Assembly: GCA_029260165.1 (NCBI GenBank)
Contig: JAJDDT010000023.1
Location: 1 to 64,000, forward strand
Direction of reading: 5' to 3'
DNA from: Phycisphaerae bacterium
Lineage (GTDB): Bacteria; Planctomycetota; Phycisphaerae; UBA1845
Length of the DNA stretch: 64,000 bases
Shown here: positions 33,260 to 40,286 of the stretch, in pieces
Position numbering within the stretch: position 1 is the stretch's first letter
Layout: each line of letters begins with the position of its first letter
Notes under the pieces: model-generated
The model's database searches: none
Told to the model about the DNA's origin: nothing
The model's input: the letters and a program-made list of their open reading frames with translations, nothing else
Position numbers and translations under genes: made by a program

Positions 33260-33354
33260 GTCATTTTGAAAGCGCAATACCGTACCGGTAACTGCCTGCG
33301 GGTACATGTCGGTCCGGTCTGCGCAGGACTGGTTGTCACTTTTTCGGTCTCGGT

Positions 33355-34905
33355 CTATCGAAACCGTCTCTGCTTCCCCGCCTTCGGAGATTTGCCTTCC
33401 ACGAGGACAAGGGACTCGTTGATTTCGTTGGCGAGTGATTCGGGAAGTTTATTTGATTCTACCTGTCGTTGGAGGGATTCCAGGGCGGCGGTGCCTTTGG
33501 GACCCGCGAGGGCAAGGGATTTGACGGACAGGCGGGCGAGGAGTGTCGATGGGTCGCGGTGATTGGCGTAGGTCCAGTTGATATCCCGGTTTGTCCAGTT
33601 GGCGGGGTCGGCGCTGTCGATGAGCCAGCCGAGTGTCTGACCTGTCTGGTCGTGTGGAGCGAGCCTGCCCAGGGCGAAAATGGCTTCTGATATTTCGGCG
33701 AGTTTGGCGATTGAGATGTTTCCGGTTGGGCTGGTGATGCACTGGGTAAGGATATTGCACTGGGTTGGGTCGTTGCAGAAACCTAGGGCGCGGGCGATGT
33801 TTTGGGCGTGGGGTTTGTAGCGTGGCTGGTTGAGCATGTTGGCCAGTGTGGCAGCGGTGGTTGGGGCTGCGTTTTGGAACAACTCGCGTGGGATTCCAGC
33901 CAGGTATTTACGATTGATGACGCGGTCAAGCCAGGCTGACTGCGCTTCGTTTTCGTCGCGGGTGAATTCGTTGAGAATTGGTTTGGTGACGATGGTTTTG
34001 CCGATTGTCCTGGTGGCGGTTCCCGGTGTTGGGGAGAGAAAGGCGTTTCGTTCAAAGTCGTTGAGCGCGTTGGTGTTGGCTTCAAAGGTGTGCATGAGGT
34101 TTCGCGGGCAATCGTCGCGATGCCCCAAACCCTGGACGTGGCCCCACTCGTGCGCCCAGACGTCGGGGTCCGCGAGAGCGGAGAGGATGGCAGTTCCACC
34201 CGTGGCAGCGCAGCCTATGACGACGGTCATGTCGGAGGGGTCGGAAACACCGCACACGCCGACAAGGAGGTTGACGATCTTAATATCCTGGGGTTCGTTG
34301 AAGATGGCCTCCAGGTCTGCCTCCGAGGTGACGACAGGGTTTCCAATATCAAACGTCGTGAGAATTCCATCGCGTTGAAAGGAAACGGCTGTTGGGACGT
34401 CGGGGCAGTCGGTGTTGTCCTGATTGAGCAGGGTTGTGGCGGATGCGAGGAAGGAGTCGACCTGGGTGTCGGTGAATTCCTGTTCGATGTGTCTGGCGAC
34501 GGTGAGGTTGAATTCATTTTCGGTGTTCGGGTCGGCGGGGGTGCTGCCTGGGGAGCTGGGGTTGTTGTCGCAAAAGTTGATGAAGTTGAGTTCGTCGAAA
34601 TTGGAGCACCCGTCACCGTCGGTGTCGATGGGGTTGACGGGGGTGTCCTGGGGGTCTGTGGGGTCGGAGCCTGGGATGCCGTTGCGTTCCACGACGTCGG
34701 AGAAGCCATCACCGTCGGAGTCGATCAGGGTGCCTGTTCCGCCACCACCGACGCAGCCTGTGCAGAATCCGGTAACGACGAGAGCGACAGTGGCAAGCAG
34801 AACGAGGCGTTGATTTCGTGACACTTCCTGACTCCGTTTGGTTGCGGGCGAGACCGGGCAACGATTGGCCGTCGGCGAAAAAATGGCGGACGACAGGAAT
34901 ATCAT
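33355..34905 (-). CDS. Secreted lipoprotein-like putative zinc metalloprotease with Ca-binding (TSP3/EF-hand-like) repeats; start may be internal near 34824
   Basis: VVTGFCTGCVGGGG signal, DSDGDGFSDVVERNGIPGSDPTDPQD, HEWGHVQGLGH (HExxHxxGxxH). Confidence 0.72.
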   Translation of the reverse strand: MIFLSSAIFSPTANRCPVSPATKRSQEVSRNQRLVLLATVALVVTGFCTGCVGGGGTGTLIDSDGDGFSDVVERNGIPGSDPTDPQDTPVNPIDTDGDGCSNFDELNFINFCDNNPSSPGSTPADPNTENEFNLTVARHIEQEFTDTQVDSFLASATTLLNQDNTDCPDVPTAVSFQRDGILTTFDIGNPVVTSEADLEAIFNEPQDIKIVNLLVGVCGVSDPSDMTVVIGCAATGGTAILSALADPDVWAHEWGHVQGLGHRDDCPRNLMHTFEANTNALNDFERNAFLSPTPGTATRTIGKTIVTKPILNEFTRDENEAQSAWLDRVINRKYLAGIPRELFQNAAPTTAATLANMLNQPRYKPHAQNIARALGFCNDPTQCNILTQCITSPTGNISIAKLAEISEAIFALGRLAPHDQTGQTLGWLIDSADPANWTNRDINWTYANHRDPSTLLARLSVKSLALAGPKGTAALESLQRQVESNKLPESLANEINESLVLVEGKSPKAGKQRRFR

Positions 34906-34970
34906 CGGAATATGATGGGGCAGGGGCCAACGCGGAAGCGTGAAACGGGCGGTTTTTTCGGGCGGGGATG

Positions 34971-35060
34971 AAAAAAAGACGGGTGGGGTGTCCCGGCTCG
35001 CCGCAGCGAACCGTGTGGTCGCGACACGTTACCGCTCAATTAAGAGCGGCCCCACCCGCG
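34971..35060 (-). ncRNA. Candidate structured RNA or complex terminator: closing stem enclosing three hairpins, followed by a U-tract
   Basis: Minus strand CGGGTGGGG…CCCCACCCG closing stem; CCGCTC/GAGCGG, CGTGT/ACACG and GGTTCGC/GCGAGCC hairpins; then TCTTTTTTT. Confidence 0.55.
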
Positions 35061-35090
35061 GGATGTGCTTTTTGGCATTTTTCCGCAGCG

Positions 35091-35987
35091 TTATTGCCAG
35101 CGGAAAATTTCGAGCATTTCTTCAAGCACCTCGTGCTCGCGCTGCGTGCCGACGATGCTGAGGGCGTTTCGACCCTGACGCGAGACGATCATGCGCACGT
35201 CACCCGGCGCGAGCATGTCGAACAGGAGGTCGGTTTTCTCCTTGTCGAAGTCGTATTTTTTTCGAACGCGTTCACCTTCGATCATGTGATCAAACGCGTC
35301 GCCTCGTCTGGTCCAGTTGAGCAATTGAAGACCGACGTCGAGGGCGTCGATTTCCTGCAGTGAACCACGGACGGTCACGCGATCGCCGTTGCGAGAGACG
35401 ATAACGGTGACGTTGGGCGGTGCGAGCAGGCTGTAGAGCAATTCACCCTGCCGGGCGTTGAGGTGATATTCGTTGACGGCGTCGTGGTTCTGAGTGTTGG
35501 TCGTGGTTGGTCGTGAATCCGCGTCGTCGTTCCAGTGTCGTTCGAGTTCGTGTTTCCACTCGCGCCAGGCGGCGGTGTGTTTTTGAATGTCGCGTTCGAG
35601 CTGTTCGTAGCGGTCCCTCGCGTCCTGCTGCCAGGTGTGCCAGCGTTGGCGCCACTCGTCGGTGTATCGTTGCAGGTCGTCGCGTTTCAGTCCGTGCGGC
35701 AACGCGGGTGGACGTGGCGGAGCGGGCAAGGCTGTTGGTTGCTGATCAAGTCGGTCGTCAATGCGCTCGAGGACGGCGGTCATCTCAGCCAGCCGCTTTT
35801 CGACCGATTCGAGGCGTTGTTCGAGTTTCGCGAGGTCGTTGTGTTGCCGGCGCGCGGGGGTGCGTGGAGGTTTCGGTGCGTCGGTGTCGGGCGCGGCGGC
35901 GAGGACGGACGGGGTCAGGGCTACAGCCACGAGCATGAGTGTGAGTCGTCCGGCCAGCGGTCCGTGCGGTTTTTTTGTGCGATACAT
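35091..35987 (-). CDS. Secreted coiled-coil protein with two tandem copies of a C-terminal domain
   Basis: Signal peptide, KLEQRLESVEKRLAEMTAVLERIDDRLDQ coil, duplicated 'LL..LLAP..V..IVSR.G….G….' domain. Confidence 0.65.
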   Translation of the reverse strand: MYRTKKPHGPLAGRLTLMLVAVALTPSVLAAAPDTDAPKPPRTPARRQHNDLAKLEQRLESVEKRLAEMTAVLERIDDRLDQQPTALPAPPRPPALPHGLKRDDLQRYTDEWRQRWHTWQQDARDRYEQLERDIQKHTAAWREWKHELERHWNDDADSRPTTTNTQNHDAVNEYHLNARQGELLYSLLAPPNVTVIVSRNGDRVTVRGSLQEIDALDVGLQLLNWTRRGDAFDHMIEGERVRKKYDFDKEKTDLLFDMLAPGDVRMIVSRQGRNALSIVGTQREHEVLEEMLEIFRWQ

Positions 35988-36373
35988 GGTATTGGCTCCT
36001 TTGACATTTCCGGTGTGACACGGAATGAGCGTCCCTTGTCGAAGACACCTCAGAATGTCCACATAGATTACCCGTACGATCGTCGGGATTCGATGGAAAC
36101 CCTGTAAAAAACGGTCAGGCGTGTTCCTGTCTGAATCGCCACTGTTCATTCGTTGCGGTTGGACATTTATTGCCTGCTACACCGGTGGCCCACCAACGTC
36201 GCACTGGTTTTCGCCATTAATCGCATGAGGACGACGGTTGGTTACACTAACGCAGGAGGTGCTGTGCTGTCTCTCAATTGAGGGGCTATATTCACAATTG
36301 AGCAGCCTGGACGTTTGCGACGGTGTTCGCGATCTTTATGGAACAACTGTTCCTGTTGTATCCAATGACGACT

Positions 36374-37567
36374 TTACCTGGGCCATTTGATGCTTCGGTT
36401 GATGGGGAATGGTTTCCATGGGTCGGGATCTGGTTCGGTGACGAGTTGTCCGAGGTCGATGGCTCGGGCGAGGTGGGGTTCGTATCCGAAGGCGAGGTCG
36501 CCCCTGCGAACGATGATGTGTACAGGTTTTCCGGCGGGGACCATGTAGAGGGATTGGACGAGGTGTTGTGCGGAGTTCACGTCCTTGCCGTTGGCGTTGA
36601 TGATTTTGTCGCCGGGACGGATGCCGAGGTCGTACATGGGTGACGGGTTGGCGACGCCGACGATACGCAATCCGTCGTCGGCGCGCCGACTGAAACGAAT
36701 GCCAAGCCAACCCCGATAGATCGACTCGCCCGTCATCAGCTCCTCGCAGATCGCGTCGACGCGGTTCTTGGGTAGGGCGAAACCGATGCCCGCGTCGTAG
36801 AACTCGACGCCTGCGAGTTCGCCCGGTCGTTGTGCCATCGGGACACAGAGTCCGATAACACGTCCGTGGACATCGATGAGTGGTCCGCCGTAGTTGGCTG
36901 GCGAGAGTTTGGCGTCGGTCTGGACGGCGTTTCCCATCATGCGGTTTTGTGCGGAGACGACGCCCACGGTGACGGAGGGTTCGCTTCCGCCGAATCCGCG
37001 ACCGAGCGCAATCGCCCACTGACCTGTGCTGATTTCGTCGGGGGAGACCCACGGAGCAGGTTCGAGGTCGTCGGCGTCGATGTGCAGGAGGGCGAGTTTT
37101 CGGACCTTGTCGCTGGCGACGAGTTCAGCCACATAGCGGCGGTCGTCGCTGAGTCGAACGGTGATGTGGGTTGGGTTTCTGACGAAATTGAAGCTGCTGG
37201 TAATGATGTAGCCATCGCTGCGGTAGATGATGCCGGTGGTGGGTCCGTCGGCGACGACGAACGATGAGCCCAGGGTGTCGCGGAACGGGCTTGGCTGGTC
37301 TTCGTCTTCGGGCATACCGTCCTCGTCTTCCATGTCGGGCATGCCGTCACCGGGATCGTGGTTCAGCGTCGGGATGTCGAGGTCGGTGATGACGCCTCTT
37401 GGGATGGCTCCGCCGACGGTTTCAATCTGGACGGTGTAGCGGGTGGCTTGTTCGATGGCGTTTCGGAACACGCGTTGGTGGGTACGTTGCAGGTCGGGGT
37501 CGTCCTGATTGGCGGGTGATGTCGCGACGACCGCGAGGGTCAGGATGGCTGTTGCGATGTGGTGCAT
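36374..37567 (-). CDS. HtrA/S1C-like PDZ protein, predicted catalytically inactive (pseudoprotease B)
   Basis: DGYIITSSFNFV (His motif lost), KLALLHI (Asp lost), ANYGGPL (Ser to Tyr); PDZ domain GLRIVGVANPSPMYDLGIRPGDKIINANGKDV. Confidence 0.8.
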   Translation of the reverse strand: MHHIATAILTLAVVATSPANQDDPDLQRTHQRVFRNAIEQATRYTVQIETVGGAIPRGVITDLDIPTLNHDPGDGMPDMEDEDGMPEDEDQPSPFRDTLGSSFVVADGPTTGIIYRSDGYIITSSFNFVRNPTHITVRLSDDRRYVAELVASDKVRKLALLHIDADDLEPAPWVSPDEISTGQWAIALGRGFGGSEPSVTVGVVSAQNRMMGNAVQTDAKLSPANYGGPLIDVHGRVIGLCVPMAQRPGELAGVEFYDAGIGFALPKNRVDAICEELMTGESIYRGWLGIRFSRRADDGLRIVGVANPSPMYDLGIRPGDKIINANGKDVNSAQHLVQSLYMVPAGKPVHIIVRRGDLAFGYEPHLARAIDLGQLVTEPDPDPWKPFPINRSIKWPR

Positions 37568-38604
37568 TATCTTGGCTCCTCGAGGGTGAGGGTTGTGTTG
37601 ACGAGCTTGTTGTTGCGAATGAGGGTGACGTCGATTCTATCGCCTGCGCTTTTGGTGCGGATGATTTTTCGGAAGGCGTCGACGTCGCCGACTTTTCGGC
37701 CATTGAGCGAGACGATGAGGTCGTCTTTTTTGATGCGGGCTTTTTTGGCAGGTGAGTTTCGTTTGACGCGTTCGACGTAGACGAGGTCTTTTTGATAGCC
37801 CATCTCGAAAAGCTTGAGGCCATGGTAGGGTTCGAGGCCTGTGTCGGTGGTGGATTCGTCGGGGGCGGAGTCCGGGTCGAGGTAACGGGTGACAAATCCG
37901 TGGACGACTTCGACGGGGACGGCGTAGTTGAAGTTGGTGTGTGTTCGGTTGGAGATCACGAGTCGTCCGATAATACCGACCCAGTTTCCTTCGATATCGA
38001 CCAGTGGTCCGCCCGGGGTCCCCGGGGTGCTGGTGATGGCGTCGATGGCGAGGACTTCGCCCTGGTAGGGGAAATCGCGGGCTTTTCGTTTGGCATCGAG
38101 GTCGGTTCGGGCGCTGAAGACGCCTCGGGTGACGGAGACGTGTTCGCGTCCTTCGGCGACCTTGAAAGGATTGCCGGCTGCGATGACCCATTCACCGGGG
38201 AAGAGTTTTCTGGAGTCGCCTGGTGGGAAGTATTTGAAAGCGCCGGGGCCCGACGGTGGGTCCGGGGCGCGTTCACCCCGGAGGTTGTAGCGCGGGAGTG
38301 GGACGAGCTTGAGCAGGGCGAGTTGGAGATTGGCGTCGGTGGTGAGGACCTTCGCGCCGTAGACGTTGCCGTCCTGTGTCACGACGCGGAGTCGTTCGGA
38401 GTCGAGCAGGAGGGACATGACAGTGACGACCATTCCGTCGTCGGAGACGAGGGTTCCGCTGCCGTAACCCGCGGACAGGCCTGCCTTGAGTCCGTAGAGT
38501 CTGACGCAGCGAGGACCGACGGTTTCGATGGCGTGGTTGAACCCGCCGGCGAGGAGGGTGGTTGGTGCGAGCAGGGCAATGCAGATGGCTCGTTTCAGGT
38601 TCAC
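37567..38604 (-). CDS. HtrA/S1C-like PDZ protein, predicted catalytically inactive (pseudoprotease A)
   Basis: DGMVVTVMSLLL, NLQLALLKL, GTPGGPLVD (Ser to Pro); PDZ YVERVKRNSPAKKARIKKDDLIVSLNGRKV. Confidence 0.8.
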   Translation of the reverse strand: MNLKRAICIALLAPTTLLAGGFNHAIETVGPRCVRLYGLKAGLSAGYGSGTLVSDDGMVVTVMSLLLDSERLRVVTQDGNVYGAKVLTTDANLQLALLKLVPLPRYNLRGERAPDPPSGPGAFKYFPPGDSRKLFPGEWVIAAGNPFKVAEGREHVSVTRGVFSARTDLDAKRKARDFPYQGEVLAIDAITSTPGTPGGPLVDIEGNWVGIIGRLVISNRTHTNFNYAVPVEVVHGFVTRYLDPDSAPDESTTDTGLEPYHGLKLFEMGYQKDLVYVERVKRNSPAKKARIKKDDLIVSLNGRKVGDVDAFRKIIRTKSAGDRIDVTLIRNNKLVNTTLTLEEPR

Positions 38605-40286
38605 CTCGTCACCTCCAGGTTGGAGGCGGTTTCGATGAAATTGAGGGATTCGGAAACGACGGTCATCTGGTGAGGCCAGGTGACGCCGGAAATTTCGCGG
38701 TAGTCATCGAACGTGATTTCGAGACGTTTTTGGGTTGGGCGATCGGTGACGACGATGCGTGCGGGCAGAGATGAGCCGCGCTCGAATCCGATGTTGATGG
38801 TCATGTTTTCGTCGGGTTTCCAGGCGATGGTTTCGAGGCGTCTTTCGCGTTGGATGTGCCCGGCGTCGTCGATGGTGACGAGGGCATCGCTGCCCTGGTG
38901 GGTCGTTTCGTCGTGTTCCCAGAGCGGTTTGCTTGAAAGGAAGACCGAGCGGAGGGCGCGGGTCGCGCGGTAGAGCAGGGTTTGGTCGGTGGTGAGGGTG
39001 AATTGGCGGTCGTTTTCGGTCCAGTAGGCATCGTCGTGGGTGAGGTGGATGACGCGGGTGGTTGATCCGTCGGGTGCGGTTTCGGTGCGGGTGTATTGGG
39101 AGCCGGTGTCTTCGATGGTGAAGGTCGAAGATTGGTTGTCGTCGGTGAGGCGGGTTGCTTTCCATTTCCATTTTGCGGGCGAGGTGGCGGATGATTGATT
39201 GACGGCGGAACGGAATGCGTCGAGCGTTTCCCTGGTGGCGGATTGGTGGTGTTCCTGGGGGACGGTGTATTCGCCTCGGAGCGGCGGTGGGGCGGGGTCG
39301 AGTCGGACCACCTTGTGGTTGATGCGACCGCTGGATTTGTAGGTGATGGGTACAGGCCAACCGGCGGGGTAGGTTCCGATGAGGCTGGCGAACTGGTTGG
39401 CGCTTTGGACATCGACGTCGCCGAAGCGGAGCAGTTCGTGACCGACCCGGATGCCCGCGTTCCAGGCGGGTGCGTCTTCAAACAGTTCGTTGAATACGAC
39501 CTGATCGACGTAGTCGGTGGTGGTGGCGTGGAGGGTGCCGTGAATGGCGAGGTTTCCCGCGCGGAGCGTTGGGAGGAATCGTTTGATCTGGTTGATGGAG
39601 ATGGCGTAGCCGAGTCCGACGTTGTATCGACCGCGGGCGTATTTGTGCATTTCGGCGGAGATGCGTCCGTTGATGCCGATGACGTTGCCATCGCGGTCGA
39701 ACAGCGGTCCACCGGAGTTTCCGGGGTTGATGGCGGCGTCGGTCTGGATGCAGTCGGTGTAGACGAGCGTTTCGCCCTCGCCCTGCCAGCGGTGCACGCC
39801 GGTGACGAGTCCGGTGGAGACGGTCGGGGAGTAGTCTTCCGCGAGGGTGAAGGGATTTCCCATGGCGATGACGTCGTCGCCGACGCGGACGGCATCTGAG
39901 TTTCCGAGTTCGGCGTGGTCGTAGGTCTCTTTTCCGACGAGTTTGAACATGGCGACGTCGCCGGTGATGTCGACGCCGAGGACCTCGAGGCGATAGAGCT
40001 TGCCGTCGGAGAGTCCACCGACCCCGATGCGCGTGTTCATGAATTTCATGACGACGTGGTAGTTGGTCAGACCGTAGCCTCTGGGGTCGATGATGACGCC
40101 TGAGCCGCCTCCGAGCCTGTCTTCGTCGAAGATGCAGACGACGGATGGGGTGATGCGTTGGACGACCTCGACGCGGCGGTTTTGTTCCGACACGACCCTT
40201 GCGAGATCGTCCTTGATGTCGGTTGGGGCAGCAGTAGCGAGGCTGACGGCGGTCAGCAGGAGTCCGATGGCGAGCGTGCGGATCAT
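38601..40286 (-). CDS. HtrA/S1C-like serine protease with intact triad and additional C-terminal domain
   Basis: GYGLTNYHVV, TGDVAMFKL, NPGNSGGPLFD; 4-bp overlaps with both neighbours. Confidence 0.88.
   Translation of the reverse strand: MIRTLAIGLLLTAVSLATAAPTDIKDDLARVVSEQNRRVEVVQRITPSVVCIFDEDRLGGGSGVIIDPRGYGLTNYHVVMKFMNTRIGVGGLSDGKLYRLEVLGVDITGDVAMFKLVGKETYDHAELGNSDAVRVGDDVIAMGNPFTLAEDYSPTVSTGLVTGVHRWQGEGETLVYTDCIQTDAAINPGNSGGPLFDRDGNVIGINGRISAEMHKYARGRYNVGLGYAISINQIKRFLPTLRAGNLAIHGTLHATTTDYVDQVVFNELFEDAPAWNAGIRVGHELLRFGDVDVQSANQFASLIGTYPAGWPVPITYKSSGRINHKVVRLDPAPPPLRGEYTVPQEHHQSATRETLDAFRSAVNQSSATSPAKWKWKATRLTDDNQSSTFTIEDTGSQYTRTETAPDGSTTRVIHLTHDDAYWTENDRQFTLTTDQTLLYRATRALRSVFLSSKPLWEHDETTHQGSDALVTIDDAGHIQRERRLETIAWKPDENMTINIGFERGSSLPARIVVTDRPTQKRLEITFDDYREISGVTWPHQMTVVSESLNFIETASNLEVTR

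Follow-up and report, generated by a model that had tools for sequence, protein, structure and literature searches.

Results

The window examined here is a 64,000-nt stretch of DNA from an uncultured planctomycete, and the element of interest is an intergenic sequence of ~90 nt that lies between two secreted-protein genes on the minus strand. The gene directly upstream, which we will call fam2 (P0001; 35091–35987), encodes a secreted coiled-coil protein for which no recognized family was found; its C terminus apparently contains two similar repeats, and the fam2 protein of genome G020, at ~790 residues, matches the query twice. The downstream gene, fam1 (33355–34824), probably encodes a lipoprotein, which contains a TSP3-like repeat (with Pfam TSP3_bac scoring below its cut-off) and an HEWGHVQGLGH metzincin-type motif of the form HExxHxxGxxH and shows weak similarity to reprolysin and matrixin. 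A preliminary description of the locus had this gene begin at an ATG at 34905; the start is probably the GTG at 34822–34824 instead, because the ATG falls within a conserved CCGATR motif discussed below. Farther upstream, still on the minus strand, are three tandem trypsin/HtrA-like protease genes (36374–40286), whose order is kept, along with two further genes, in genomes G001, G021, and G014.

The whole element, a conserved structured RNA, occupies 34971–35060 of the minus strand, where it is matched by model R1 at 98.4 bits. Its 5' half reads, after one C, GCGGGTGG (P1), GGCCGCTCTTAATTGAGCGGTAAC (which contains P2), and GTGTCGCGACCACAC (the core); its 3' half reads GGTTCGCTGCGGCGAGCC (P4), GG, GACAC, C, CCACCCGT (P1'), and CTTTTTTT. 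The 5' strand of P1 (35052–35059) is nearly invariant, being ACGGGTGG in most homologues, and its 3' strand (34979–34986) is the same in all eight. Enclosed by P1 are the variable and covarying P2 hairpin (GCCGCTC-TTAATT-GAGCGGT, 35031–35050); the invariant core (35013–35027), which supplies the 5' strand of P3 and an asymmetric internal loop and contains the palindrome GTCGCGAC; the P4 hairpin (GGTTCGC-TGCG-GCGAGCC, 34995–35012); and the 3' strand of P3 (GACAC, 34988–34992), the partner of which is GTGTC at 35023–35027. On the 3' side of P1 is a terminator-like CTTTTTTT tract (34971–34978), and the downstream end at 34971–34986 can be written CCACCCG-TCTTTTTTT. A 5' flank, GCACATCCC (35060–35068), is partly conserved, with CATCYC in six of eight homologues. 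The stems, hairpin arms, and T-tract thus lie on the minus strand where the preliminary description had placed them. The closing stem that it gave as 9 bp is present as well, with a conserved part of 8 bp (GCGGGTGG/CCACCCGT); the extra G–C pairs are not conserved.

With its flanks, the minus strand folds at −50.1 kcal/mol, as against −37.6 kcal/mol (S.D. 3.7) in dinucleotide shuffles (z −3.4; 2 of 200 shuffles equally good), and folding of the plus strand is unremarkable (z −1.0). For the trimmed element, z is −5.4, with no fold of equal stability among 300 shuffles. Stability beyond the shuffled range is found in all eight homologues. The favored fold is a three-way junction composed of P1, the variable P2, and P3 with its asymmetric loop and terminal P4, an arrangement that places P3 beside P1, available for stacking. 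Two pairings compete for the same invariant GUGU, which can pair with ACAC in the core to give a four-way junction or, as GUGUC, with GACAC to give the three-way junction. The latter fold is better by 2.1 kcal/mol in the window and by 2–5 kcal/mol across all eight homologues. The four-way-junction-like fold proposed earlier is therefore rejected as the main fold, and its second hairpin, CGTGT-CGCGACC-ACACG, is possible but not favored, GUGUC pairing with GACAC at 34988–34992 instead. Covariation cannot decide between GUGU/ACAC and GUGUC/GACAC because neither pairing varies, and the RNA may alternate between them. A UCCC:GGGA pseudoknot involving the 5' flank was also considered and gains no support from the changes in G015.

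Homologues were sought in two ways. A blastn search of 60 relatives gave clear copies in six further genomes. The other search used a covariance model trained on seven sequences, which found the element in eight of the 51 genomes examined in the same GTDB family, one copy apiece, at 81–102 bits; the runner-up within the family reached 28 bits. The eight carriers represent six genera of uncultured Phycisphaerae metagenome-assembled genomes (MAGs). Model searches of wider samples gave no further homologue in the order (114 genomes), only weak matches, all without the core, in the class (397 genomes), and only the window's own copy in the phylum (392 genomes). When 84,980 species genomes were scanned for an exact pattern, seven contigs were returned, all from Phycisphaerae, Phycisphaerales, or Planctomycetota MAGs and apparently from the same seven genomes. 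No copy of the element was found in plasmid and phage collections; the bare 15-mer core is present in six IMG/VR viral contigs, none of which the model matches. Seven more distant fam1 genes share no upstream element (best score 14 bits).

Several candidates were set aside. Three copies in G164 and one match in G259, at 30–33 bits, do not have the core and were treated as unrelated hairpin repeats or chance, and L015 (G038) is located within a coding frame. The G164 loci (L074–L076) are an unrelated 70-nt multi-hairpin repeat in three near-identical copies (GGGTGCCACTGGTTGC...GGCACCC). Against Rfam 15, nothing in the window reached a gathering threshold, and at a loose E-value nothing came near the cut-off for the element or six homologous loci; ARAGORN found no tRNA or tmRNA in the window.

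The alignment of the eight genomes contains compensatory changes at 10 of 29 pairs, in 16 cells (shuffle mean 3.8; none of 500 shuffles has as many), as expected of a structured noncoding RNA. When the partners are slid by one column, paired cells fall from 98% to at most 49%. The changed pairs are confined to P2 (4 pairs) and P4 (6 of its 7 pairs). In P1 and P3, by contrast, 12 of 14 pairs never vary, and neither do any of the 15 letters of GTGTCGCGACCACAC. The loop GUGUCGCGACCACAC is invariant in the eight genomes and, with P2 and P4 covarying, forms an aptamer-like conserved core inside covarying helices, as in riboswitches. G-U pairs occur in 15 cells and would be mismatches on the opposite strand, which indicates an RNA read from the minus strand. 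P1, P3, and the core are thus constrained in sequence, beyond pairing; for the unusual invariance of P1, the likeliest explanation is that the helix is read in a sequence-specific manner. The flanks beyond the element can barely be aligned among the homologues, so its conservation is not merely recent kinship. Thus, the structured noncoding RNA suggested by the preliminary description is supported on the two counts on which it was to be judged, folding against shuffled controls and covariation in homologues.

In its usual setting, the order is fam2, element, fam1 on one strand. The element is 3' of fam2 in seven of eight genomes (31–135 nt after the stop codon; 31 nt in the window genome) and 5' of fam1 in seven of eight (112–301 nt before the start codon), always co-directionally. 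Two settings occur above fam2: the window genome, G001, and G021 have three trypsin-like protease genes there, and G020 has none. Full-length fam1 is present in 15 of the 51 family genomes, all eight carriers among them, and the fam1 tree is compatible with a single origin of the element. Clear fam2 is present in seven family genomes and is followed by the element in every one. Two genomes depart from the usual order. In G014, no fam2 is detectable genome-wide, and the element is kept above fam1, with the last of the protease genes ~750 bases above it. In G071, fam2 is followed by the element and then by an ISL3-type transposase end and the end of the contig; the element is undamaged, and the sole full fam1 lies on a different contig of this draft assembly, behind a pdxA-like gene recognized by eye from its translation. 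The transposase fragment, the C-terminal end of an ISL3-family protein (L040, 1–143), stands right behind the element's T-run. These arrangements indicate that the element is separable from either neighbor. The idea that it is tied to fam1 alone was dropped given G071 and the motif between the element and the fam1 start codon. With a single copy per genome and a conserved neighborhood, the element does not behave as a repeat or mobile sequence of the REP, MITE, or attC-like kind.

That motif, CCGATR (CCGATG at 34903–34908 of the minus strand), lies outside the element and resembles a promoter of fam1. It is found between the element and the fam1 start codon in all eight genomes, counting the leader of the separate fam1 in G071, and none of 200 shuffles reaches eight genomes for any comparable 6-mer. 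It is also found ahead of fam1 in five of seven relatives without the element, 13 genomes in all. From this distribution, transcription of fam1 probably begins independently, downstream of the element; CCGATR would then be part of fam1's own promoter, and the element would stand above the fam1 message. At these loci, the motif is 2.4 times commoner upstream of genes than inside them, partly owing to fam1. TAAGCTT stands ahead of it in three genus g4 genomes and may be reminiscent of the sigma-28 −10 sequence, GCCGATAA. A consensus scan of 33300–36200 found no sigma-70-like promoter, and a search by eye found no conserved −10/−35 pair upstream of the element.

At the 3' end, six of eight genomes have the anatomy of an intrinsic terminator, a stable G+C-rich stem, P1, and then, no more than 12 nt behind it, six to nine consecutive T residues. 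Each such run is rare for its length, being found in at most ~0.2% of background windows from its own neighborhood. The tract after P1 in G014 is broken or weak (TTATTTATT). G020 is without a T-run and has, ~15 nt downstream, a canonical hairpin (GGGCGCCGG-GTTTT-CCGGCGCCC) with a T-rich tail. Termination at the 3' end of the element thus seems to be conserved as a function. The element is absent from a scan for simple-hairpin terminators because its loop is branched.

Discussion

The element is probably a real regulatory RNA, with a putative function, and a promising candidate for a new family of structured RNAs of narrow range. Our preferred reading, which we hold tentatively, is that it is a small RNA, either stand-alone or released from the fam2 3'-UTR, that ends in its own closing-stem terminator. 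P1 stacked on P3 would act as an intrinsic terminator stem that ends the transcript, and a discrete ~90-nt RNA with a U-rich 3' end would accumulate. In the window genome, where only 31 nt separate the two, the fam2 message could release the RNA from its 3' end; in G014, where fam2 is absent, a promoter of its own would produce it. A partner, whether protein, RNA, or small molecule, would read the sequence of the invariant P1, P3, and GUGUCGCGACCACAC core, since helices without such a role would be expected to covary in the manner of P2 and P4. This partner is probably not Hfq. Its family (PF17209) was found in none of the eight carrier genomes, by a search in which E. coli, B. subtilis, and other controls were positive, which makes a classical Hfq-dependent small RNA unlikely; any action in trans would be Hfq-free. 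Further observations count against the small-RNA reading. The consensus scan gave no sigma-70-like promoter for it, and the recurrent, co-directional position of the elements behind fam2 and ahead of fam1 is also compatible with a role in cis. CCGATR, to which we assign a promoter role by inference, is modestly enriched upstream of genes in general, and the evidence of G071 comes from a draft assembly.

We favor the small RNA over two cis-acting explanations, both of them serious rivals. The first of these, which we consider unlikely, is that the element is a leader of fam1, acting as an attenuator or riboswitch. Here, the fam1 message would begin above the element, P1 stacked on P3 and the U-tract would end transcription early, and read-through would be set by a ligand, ion, or protein on the invariant core or by the GUGU switch between ACAC and GACAC. 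The co-directional position 112–301 nt ahead of fam1 in seven genomes, among them the fam2-less G014, fits this explanation, as do the aptamer-like placement of an invariant internal loop next to covarying helices, the overlap of structure and terminator, and the two rival pairings of the same GUGU. However, the intact element of G071 does not adjoin fam1, and a conserved promoter-like motif belonging to fam1 lies between the element and the gene; the riboswitch-like attenuator of the preliminary description is possible, and these two observations weaken it. The closing stems of aptamers usually vary in sequence, unlike P1. Moreover, no conserved antiterminator partner was seen, and a single gene family lies downstream.

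Ranking just after the leader, and likewise unlikely, is the view that the element does no more than terminate or stabilize the fam2 message, as an elaborate intrinsic terminator or a stability element. In favor of this view, the element follows fam2 by 31–135 nt wherever fam2 is clear, and a T-run stands behind the closing stem. But the element is retained in G014 without fam2, and a plain terminator needs neither an invariant 15-nt loop nor an invariant closing stem nor two covarying arms. For the unusually elaborate terminator envisaged earlier, then, support extends as far as the anatomy.

A further possibility, which we also regard as unlikely, is that Phycisphaerae possess an undescribed class of RNA for sensing or protein binding, with one stem serving both as terminator and as closing stem of the receptor. 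GUGU would switch partners, from ACAC in the core to GACAC in P3 or back, and what binds the invariant core would decide whether P1–P3 is completed and transcription ends. Finally, it is very improbable that the element is a protein- or recombinase-bound DNA site or a decaying mobile element whose inverted repeats are only RNA-like, for although its terminal inverted repeat (ACGGGTGG/CCACCCGT) and the palindrome GTCGCGAC are invariant and an IS end abuts the G071 element, it is single-copy and vertically kept in position, its G-U pairs and compensatory changes make sense on one strand only, the T-run is on that same strand, and phages and plasmids give no match, the model rejecting even the six core-bearing viral contigs.

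Set against known systems, the small RNA that we prefer resembles 3'-UTR-derived and terminator-ended small RNAs in lying just behind a coding gene, as a single copy with a 3' T-run. It differs from them in that no Hfq was found in the carrier genomes and in being a small RNA predicted from sequence; if this reading is true, it would be a regulator in bacteria without detected Hfq. The likeness to intrinsic (Rho-independent) terminators, a G+C-rich closing stem followed directly by a U-run, extends to six of eight genomes, but where a terminator hairpin has a loop of 3–8 nt, the stem of the element encloses ~65 nt, folded as a three-way junction whose internal loop is invariant. Among the literature on "Phycisphaerae" and "riboswitch," judged by title, we found no experimentally studied regulatory RNA of Phycisphaerae. 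The Rhodopirellula-1 motif, a candidate structured RNA of Proteobacteria and Planctomycetes that has no Rfam accession in the table of the paper describing it (PMC2864571), is like the element a planctomycete candidate. Other parallels are crcB and pfl, riboswitch candidates that overlap terminators (Weinberg et al. 2010, PMC2864571). Like them, the element is conserved and structured, usually precedes a single gene family, and shares its 3' part with a terminator; unlike them, it has no Rfam match even at loose thresholds, has one downstream gene only, and is separable from that gene in G071. Two helices and a loop that are invariant in sequence, covariation in the rest, and the lack of any relative in Rfam make it a testable candidate for a new RNA family, and if a terminator-linked receptor proves to be the correct reading, it would add to the known systems an architecture in which one stem is common to receptor and terminator.
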